DNA of 11,044 nucleotides. It comes from a bacterium (GTDB taxonomy: Bacteria > SZUA-79 > Acidulodesulfobacterales > Acidulodesulfobacteraceae). Every line of letters starts with the position of its first letter. Position 1 is the first letter of the stretch. The stretch is from the NCBI GenBank assembly GCA_021791295.1, contig JAJYWW010000030.1, forward strand, positions 1 to 11,044, read 5' to 3'. Positions 2,759 to 4,311 of this stretch are shown piece after piece. Below the pieces are notes generated by a model that searched no databases, was not told the DNA's origin, and worked only from the letters and a program-made list of their open reading frames with translations. A program made the translations under genes and the position numbers.

Positions 2759-2810
2759 AAAAAAATGGAGGGGCGTAAACAAAATATGAGTTACGACCCT
2801 CCATTTTTTT
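2759..2810. terminator. Bidirectional rho-independent terminator
   Basis: Seven A, then TGGAGGG and CGTAA, a loop of about 12 nt, then TTACG, CCCTCCA and seven T. The arms pair over about 17 positions with one G/A mismatch. The A-tract and T-tract on either side make it work on both strands. It lies between the convergent universal stress gene (ends 2742) and the PDO gene (ends 2842), so one hairpin serves both. Confidence 0.9.
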
Positions 2811-2841: not shown

Positions 2842-3495
2842 TTATTGCCTATTAGCATACCCTTCCATAACTTTACCGAGAAAAACCGCTTCCGGAACCG
2901 CACCTACAACTTCGGCAGATTCGTTCATTACCGTTTTAGGCACGCTGAAAACCTCATATTTGTCTGAAAGATTAGGAAATTCTTGAATTTCTATTACGTC
3001 TGACGTAATATTTTCGTTAGCTATAGCAAAACTGTGCGCAAGAACCGCCGCCGGCGGACAATGAGGTCAGGTAGGGGTTACGAAAACCTGAATATTATAA
3101 GGCTTTGTTATTTCTTTTAACTTTTCGACCGTTTTTTCCGACAAGCCGGTTTCCTTGGTAGAAACGTTAATTATTCCGTTAACTAAAGTCATAAATTCAT
3201 GACCGGCCGGCATACCGTAAAATCTGACTCCGTAATCTTTATCGCCTTCTATAACTATAGCGGGAGTTCTTTTTATTCCGTAAAGTTTAACTTTATCGGT
3301 ATCTTTGTCGAAATCGTATTCTTCTAAACTTAATTTATCGCTTAACCCTGCAACCTCTGCAAGTATATCTTTGACTTCCTTGCAATAAAGACAGGCATCT
3401 TCGGCTTTAAAAAAAATTAACTTAACGTTATTTTTTAATTTTTCGTTAAAATCTTTTTTCAGGAACTCGCTATCCTGCTCGCTTAATAGAGGCAT
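2842..3495 (-). CDS. Glutaredoxin-like protein disulfide oxidoreductase with predicted selenocysteine (U143)
   Basis: Two thioredoxin folds in tandem, the layout of the PDO/glutaredoxin-like family (about 215-230 aa) that reduces or exchanges disulfides in the cytoplasm. Reading from ATG 3495 (AGGAG five nt upstream) to TAA 2842-2844 gives 217 residues, with one in-frame TGA at 3067-3069. First fold: C35-L-Y-C38, cis-Pro in R-T-P78, and the family element FYGMPAGHEF at 92-101. Second fold: VFVTPT-U143-P-H-C146, cis-Pro in SVP186KT, ending GKVMEGYANRQ. The TGA replaces exactly the first Cys of the second CxxC. After it the frame stays open for 74 codons, preserves family features and brings the total to family length. 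No usable start lies between the TGA and M190, so the second half is not a separate gene. Alternatives are a Cys-to-stop mutation or a sequencing error; the hairpin at 3045-3057 favours recoding. The selenocysteine machinery is not in this window. Confidence 0.88.
3045..3069 (-). promoter_or_regulatory. Candidate bacterial SECIS element with its UGA codon
   Basis: In the mRNA the UGA (3067-3069) is followed after 14 nt by a perfect hairpin: CCGCC (3057-3053), loop GGC, GGCGG (3049-3045). All five pairs are G-C, in the most GC-rich spot of an AT-rich gene, made by the codons CCG CCG GCG GCG. Bacterial SECIS elements lie directly downstream of the UGA inside the coding region, with G at the first loop positions, and are bound by SelB; this fits. 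Spacing is slightly shorter and the stem shorter than typical. An alternative weaker pairing, UGU-C-CGC with GCG-C-ACA, would give a larger loop. The UGA is followed by C, a context in which termination is weak. Confidence 0.6.
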
Positions 3496-3538
3496 TTTTT
3501 CTCCTTTTTTTATTTAGTCAATTTTAAGCTATAATTAT

Positions 3539-3609: not shown

Positions 3610-4311
3610 ATGCAGCCAAAATTACATAACTATTGTATAGATAAGACTTTTGAGCTTCTTTATAACGATTCTAAATTAAACGTTATAAATTCACTTCTCG
3701 ATAAAAACATTTGCGGCATTAAACCCGAAGAAAGAATCAGGCTAATGCATCACGGCTCATACATAATCGACAGGCTTGCCATAAAAAAACTAAGAGTTCA
3801 TTGGTTCGGAGGGCATTACCTTTATCCGCATTCGCATGCAGGATATATCAGCGGCTTTTCCGACGCAGGAACAAAATGCGTTCAACTTTTCAATATAGCG
3901 TTGAAAGATTGGGAGAAAGGCAGATTTAAAAAATCGTTTATAAATCTCGGAGGCGCCGTTCATCTTGTGCAAGATTTATGCATTCCTTTCCATACAACAA
4001 ATCTTGCATTAAAAAAACACGTCCTATTTGAAAGATGGATGTCGGCAAATTATTTGGAAACAGATTTAAAATTAGAAAAAGGTATATATAAGTTTAAACC
4101 TCTGCGCGGGCATTACAGGGACGCTCATCCTTTCGGATGGGTGGATTACAACGCTCACAATTCCTCTCTTTATTTGCCTGAACTGCTCTATGCAAAGACT
4201 AAATTAGAATATTTTAACGCAATAAACAGAATTTTACCGGAAGCGGTAAAAACTTCCGCAGGTTTTCTGGAACTTTTCGCAAAGAAAACAGCTAAACTGC
4301 AAAAGCGTTAA
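3610..4311 (+). CDS. Zinc-dependent phospholipase C-like hydrolase, no signal peptide
   Basis: A 233-residue, mostly helical protein resembling the zinc-dependent phospholipase C / S1-P1 nuclease superfamily, which uses a three-metal site to cleave phosphodiesters. Likely metal ligands in order: H6 (TK-like helix start LHNYC), D54 in HHGSYIID, one of H64/H69/H74/H76, H118-x3-D122-x5-H128 in the diagnostic AVHLVQDLCIPFHTT, and H137-x3-E141. The HxxxD...PxH cluster is the strongest evidence. Classical members are secreted and begin with a signal peptide followed by a Trp ligand. Here there is neither: the protein begins seven residues before the first helix, so it is probably cytoplasmic. No Shine-Dalgarno sequence precedes the ATG, and the promoter abuts it. 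It is divergent from the PDO gene and 63 nt upstream of the CobD-like gene on the same strand. Substrate unknown. Confidence 0.8.
   Translation: MQPKLHNYCIDKTFELLYNDSKLNVINSLLDKNICGIKPEERIRLMHHGSYIIDRLAIKKLRVHWFGGHYLYPHSHAGYISGFSDAGTKCVQLFNIALKDWEKGRFKKSFINLGGAVHLVQDLCIPFHTTNLALKKHVLFERWMSANYLETDLKLEKGIYKFKPLRGHYRDAHPFGWVDYNAHNSSLYLPELLYAKTKLEYFNAINRILPEAVKTSAGFLELFAKKTAKLQKR

Follow-up and report, generated by a model that had tools for sequence, protein, structure and literature searches.

The window, i.e. the entire stretch of 11,044 nucleotides analysed here, harbours a gene for a two-domain protein disulfide oxidoreductase (PDO) on the minus strand (2842..3495), which starts with ATG and ends with TAA. 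Codon 143 of this gene is an in-frame TGA (3067..3069, minus strand). When the TGA is read as selenocysteine (Sec), the open reading frame comprises 217 codons with exactly one internal TGA, embedded in the motif T-P-T-U-P-H-C-P, while reading with translation table 11 stops after 142 amino acids. The first active site, C-L-Y-C, is encoded by codons 35–38 (3382..3393, minus strand) and the second, U-P-H-C, by codons 143–146 (3058..3069, minus strand). A CxxC motif was found at the first site in all 24 genes compared (that of the window and those of 23 relatives). The first-pass annotation had placed the TGA at the first Cys position of the second CxxC in a protein of 217 amino acids, which is borne out by the translation of this minus-strand gene. 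Judging from its sequence, GGAG at 3501..3504 (minus strand) is a likely ribosome-binding site; purine-rich stretches of G are present at the same place in relatives.

The neighbouring genes are a convergent gene for a universal stress protein (usp, 2296-2742) and a divergent phospholipase C-like gene (3610-4311), which scores 26.1 bits in Pfam against a cut-off of 26.8 bits. A 20-nt inverted repeat with A/T runs between usp and the PDO gene (2759..2810, assigned to neither strand) is a likely two-way terminator. Weak Rfam matches near 2700-2857 all remained below the gathering scores and were taken as chance matches on this repeat. At the 23 loci of the same phylum, for which flanks of at most 1.5 kb were examined, usp was found near the PDO gene in 17, the phospholipase C-like gene in 21 and a protein of 187 amino acids in 22. 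In the window, the latter is encoded at 1559-2122; it has a Lys/Tyr-rich stretch and yielded no NCBIfam match. The neighbourhood of usp and the phospholipase C-like gene is uninformative on function, and none of the scanned window neighbours of the PDO gene was recognised as a redox gene. The Cys-TGA end of usp was considered as a C-terminal Sec and rejected, since relatives swap TGA for TAA or TAG and the tail is not conserved.

Family assignment

PDOs typically possess two active sites of the CxxC type, and two such sites, CLYC and UPHC, are present in the window protein. It scores 270.8 bits with the NCBIfam model TIGR02187 ('PDO_seleno_TRX'; cut-off 185 bits), covering positions 2-208 of the 209 positions of the profile, and lies far below the thioredoxin cut-offs in the same search. 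The best match among solved structures is PDB 1a8l, a protein disulfide oxidoreductase (E 1.8e-50, residues 1-211). The part downstream of the TGA, taken alone, matches Pfam Thioredoxin_3 with 46 bits.

Conservation of the in-frame TGA within the phylum

The genome nearest to the window is G001, which has 23% of the sampled words in common with it and a PDO homologue that is 97% identical. Thirty genomes from the phylum of G001 were used as relatives and all of them were searched. A full PDO gene was detected in 23 of the 30 genomes, representing five of six genera, and each of the 23 genes carries exactly one TGA at the same place, which excludes chance as the origin of the in-frame triplet. 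The stop at this site is always TGA, never TAA or TAG, Cys was found there in none of the 23 full-length homologues, and the motif T-P-T-U-P-H-C-P surrounds the TGA in all 23 extracted genes. In G014, the PDO gene additionally ends in TGA.

One further genome (G027) contains the gene only as a piece cut by the contig end. Among the 30 genomes searched, G008, G011, G016, G021, G024 and G026 gave no PDO match over the cut-off. As G021, G024 and G026 lack a match despite being at least 92% complete, the gene is not universal in the phylum.

Values of pN/pS, pooled over all pairs of the 24 genes, were 0.195 before the TGA, 0.229 after it and 0.230 beyond codon 154. The statement of the first-pass annotation that coding continues beyond the TGA is thus supported both by this purifying selection and by the Thioredoxin_3 match of the downstream part. 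Decay or random stops after the TGA, which it had named as evidence against a selenoprotein, were not seen in the relatives. The conservation of P144, C146, P147, V185, P186 and G198 rounds to 100% across 155 aligned rows; these had been picked for their similarity or with a pattern in which P144, C146 and P147 are already fixed.

Selenocysteine machinery

Matches over the cut-off were obtained in the 30 phylum genomes for SelA (28 genomes), SelB (27), SelD (30) and tRNA-Sec (25), the counts for SelB and tRNA-Sec being derived from the rows listed in searches that covered 36 genomes. The best SelD match has one TGA of its own in all 30 genomes. The anticodon is TCA in each of the seven tRNA-Sec loci given to ARAGORN.

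A tRNA-Sec over the cut-off was absent from G001, G003, G008, G016 and G025, where a direct DNA search also missed it. In G001, synteny breaks off at base 1 of a contig, approximately 200 nt before the place of the tRNA-Sec, and resumes at the end of another contig. Since this place is flanked by contig ends on both sides, there is likely an assembly gap, to which the missing tRNA-Sec of G001 is probably due. In G003, the match starts again immediately downstream of the place defined by synteny with G006, the DNA before this place differs, and no tRNA was found in the 3.5 kb taken (L257, contig 12, 1-3500); this genome nevertheless has SelA, SelB and a SelD with TGA. The search for the machinery that the first-pass annotation had proposed, run in the 30 relatives, was therefore positive for SelA, SelB, SelD and tRNA-Sec in most of them and left five genomes, including the nearest one, without a tRNA-Sec.

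Sec- and Cys-containing homologues outside the phylum

A search of 386 genomes yielded 88 with a match over the TIGR02187 cut-off. The resulting census has 65 members outside the phylum, of which 11 contain a TGA, in all 11 cases in the second site (second matches of G129 and G177 as well as one more TGA match, in G273 and under the cut-off, were left out; 4 of the 65 loci escaped the parsing script and were inspected by eye). In the 52 parsed census rows lacking a TGA, the residue at column 143 is always Cys and never Trp. Cys is likewise found at this column in 58 of 58 aligned rows, which were chosen for Cys. The homologue alignment suggested by the first-pass annotation hence gave the pattern it had expected for Sec, with TGA in all 23 phylum genes and Cys at the column in homologues.

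Named genomes were also scanned with a pattern built on the second-site motif, which returned at least 117 stretches; judged by the residues around the motif, 79 of the 80 listed look like in-frame PDO genes, of which three are cut by the locus end. The record titles of the listed matches name Acidobacteria, Chloroflexi, Rokubacteria, Bacillota, Gemmatimonadetes, Zixibacteria and others, showing the Sec form of the family in many phyla. From the 80 listed loci, 73 Sec genes of other lineages were taken for comparison. Left out were an out-of-frame chance match (L166), three loci cut by the locus end (L101, L105, L141) and three of the same phylum (L135, L142, L171).

A FastTree phylogeny of 182 rows requires 20 changes between Sec and Cys; outside the phylum, the 12 rows closest to the window have Cys. 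Since most Sec rows of this tree were picked by the TGA pattern, we claim only that Sec and Cys have changed repeatedly.

We claim no link between Sec and loss of the first CxxC, because among the parsed census members this site is retained by 8 of 9 with Sec and by 44 of 52 with Cys. When read by eye, it was also kept in all four census members missed by the motif (two Sec, two Cys). Among the listed, pattern-picked Sec genes outside the phylum, 42 of 73 retain the first CxxC, compared to 58 of 58 Cys rows, whose selection had been based on their similarity to the window protein or on a top score. The motif is absent from some Sec members of other phyla (31 of the 73 pattern-picked genes and 1 of 9 in the parsed census; the site of L267, for example, is GDLC), as it is from 8 of the 52 parsed Cys census members.

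SECIS-like hairpin downstream of the UGA

A G + C-rich, SECIS-like hairpin, CCGCC|GGC|GGCGG, is located directly behind the UGA at 3045..3057 (minus strand), with a stem formed by 3053-3057 and 3045-3049 and a loop at 3050-3052. Counted from the base after the UGA, the hairpin begins at 9 nt and its loop at 14 nt in all 24 genes. The underlying codons 146-150 (TGT CCG CCG GCG GCG) are invariant in the 24 genes, and the stem therefore shows no variation inside the phylum; the G + C content of the window is 36%. Ten control Pro/Ala columns elsewhere in the gene all vary, while invariance is also seen in five single codon columns outside this stretch. When codons 144-153 were compared with 20000 randomly drawn sets of other codons, not one set reached their degree of conservation.

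The bacterial SECIS model demands a loop of 3-9 nt, an upper stem of 4-16 bp, a G in the first two loop positions, 16-37 nt between the UGA and the apical loop and an energy of at most -7.5 kcal/mol, and the available text of the same source states that some genes do not fit the published model (PMC13188914). The PDO hairpin agrees with this consensus in its 5-bp stem, in its 3-nt loop GGC beginning with G and in its position directly behind the UGA, but differs from it in the spacing, which is 14 nt. The 45 nt after the UGA fold with -9.5 kcal/mol and the hairpin alone with -7.0 kcal/mol, values on either side of the limit of the model. At 16-37 nt, no hairpin of -4 kcal/mol or better was found in any of the 24 genes. 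In contrast, the best hairpin of the 73 Sec genes of other lineages, among the matches listed, lies at 17-29 nt (at 17 nt in 37 of them), and 66 of the 73 have, at 16-37 nt, a hairpin of -4 kcal/mol or lower with G in the first two positions of its loop. The same was true for 5 of 20 Cys homologues, for which 20 of 22 loci had been parsed.

By synonymous shuffling, the folding energies of the phylum genes hardly differ from those at their own control position (mean z -0.97 vs -0.82), but they do differ from those of Cys homologues (p 0.002). In other lineages, the Sec genes differ both from their own control (p 4.8e-7) and from Cys homologues (p 0.004).

Other selenoprotein genes of the same phylum have their hairpins further downstream. 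For SelD, each of the 20 genes examined (out of 30 found) features a GGUCC|GGA|GGACC type of hairpin at 17 nt, and FdhA has one at 18-19 nt in both genomes with the TGA form (ten genomes searched). From the comparison of the SelD and PDO hairpins, it follows that the apical core CC|GGN|GG is common to both and that it lies one codon closer to the UGA in the PDO gene. We lean, if only slightly, towards interpreting the PDO hairpin as a compact class of SECIS, frozen across the phylum at a spacing of 14 nt and read by the same SelB through the core CC|GGN|GG. If this is true, SelB tolerates a shift by one codon, and scanners that rely on the 16-37 nt rule overlook genes of this kind. The short spacing offers a direct test of the slack that SelB allows between the UGA and the hairpin loop.

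Decoding of the UGA codon

Based on these results, we are highly confident that the PDO gene encodes a Sec-containing member of TIGR02187 with two fused thioredoxin-fold domains and Sec at codon 143. The prediction of the first-pass annotation, namely Sec in the second site next to an ordinary first CxxC, gains support from the machinery in relatives, the Cys homologues, the TGA in 23 of 23 genes, the selection on the gene and the hairpin. SelB and tRNA-Sec would decode UGA 143 as Sec under the direction of the compact hairpin.

If the TGA were instead a real stop, the functional protein would have 142 amino acids and the remainder would be a remnant or untranslated. Public databases do contain many versions of 142 amino acids that end at codon 143. 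Purifying selection is, however, about as strong after the TGA as before it, the downstream part keeps C146, P186 and its Thioredoxin_3 match, and the triplet is TGA and never TAA or TAG in 23 of 23 genes, all of which makes this reading very improbable. A short product of 142 amino acids may arise as a by-product under selenium scarcity. We regard it as slightly less probable still that the UGA is decoded as Trp, through a change of the code, or by near-cognate readthrough. Trp does stand at the position in 7 of 13 database proteins retrieved (P0002-P0008), but these seven, which belong to the lineage, are probably table-4 translations on short contigs. Moreover, homologues without the stop have Cys in all of the selected and parsed rows described above, the PDO gene of G014 itself ends in TGA, and Sec machinery is present in the phylum, where the best SelD match itself contains a TGA in 30 of 30 genomes. 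A general recoding of TGA, which the first-pass annotation had already discounted, is contradicted by the TGA stops of usp and CobD in the window, by in-frame TGG in 5 of 10 window genes checked and by the usp stop, which varies between TGA, TAA and TAG in relatives. The least credible of the alternatives is a sequencing error or a pseudogene, for which no supporting evidence was found, given that the same codon occurs in 23 other genomes of five genera without a second stop inside the match and that the gene is under purifying selection.

With Sec as the preferred reading, the versions of the PDO gene in databases that have 142 amino acids or a Trp are corrected. A selenoprotein is added to this acidophile lineage, with Sec at the site in every full-length copy found.

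Predicted function

By analogy with characterised relatives, the most likely work of the PDO is disulfide reduction. An archaeal PDO receives electrons from an NADPH-thioredoxin reductase and reactivates peroxiredoxin (PMC7278568). In the window protein, as inferred from characterised archaeal PDOs, thioredoxin reductase would reduce the C-L-Y-C site, electrons would pass on to U-P-H-C, and the selenolate would attack disulfides of substrates or oxidised peroxiredoxin. Such a route from thioredoxin reductase via the two sites to targets such as peroxiredoxins appears a reasonable, moderately favoured proposal.

Thioredoxin reductase was found over the cut-off in 9 of 10 phylum genomes and AhpC/TSA proteins in 10 of 10, with no internal stop in any listed match of the latter. 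Peroxiredoxin and thioredoxin reductase genes have been reported to be expressed in the order Ca. Acidulodesulfobacterales (PMC6776010); in the available main text of that order description, no word beginning with 'seleno' occurs. At the 79 Sec-PDO loci among the listed pattern matches, three of which come from the phylum of the window, 99 adjacent open reading frames on the same strand include 6 OsmC, 5 AhpC-TSA and 5 rhodanese proteins; some of the 99 may be spurious.

Comparison with known systems

The window protein matches the sequences of the solved PDOs 1a8l, 1j08, 2ayt, 2ywm and 2hls over most of its length. In the alignment, 1a8l has Cys in both CxxC sites, whereas the window protein has Sec in the second. 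The N-terminal part of AhpF is also similar, as both the AhpF model and solved AhpF chains match the PDO (residues 14-215 in the case of the model). However, the PDO is far shorter than the 515 positions of the AhpF model (TIGR03140) and reaches 84.9 bits compared to the cut-off of 502.9 bits.

TIGR02187 is listed as a predicted selenoprotein family with a UxxC motif in the available text of two reviews (PMC9312934, PMC13188914), and Asgard archaea also possess a Sec form of the family (PMC11227280). The first-pass annotation had not been aware of a characterised example of this exact two-domain form. Our literature search for a Sec form of TIGR02187 or a UxxC PDO found no biochemical study, but the form is already on record as a predicted family. 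The PDO of the window shares with these known selenoproteins the family model, the type of motif and the replacement of Cys by Sec. It differs from them in the spacing of the loop and in its lineage, as the available text of the cited reviews does not name the Acidulodesulfobacterales for the Sec form of TIGR02187. The Sec family itself is thus known, and what is new here is the lineage, probably that of Ca. Acididesulfobacter, together with the SECIS-like hairpin and its loop spacing of 14 nt.
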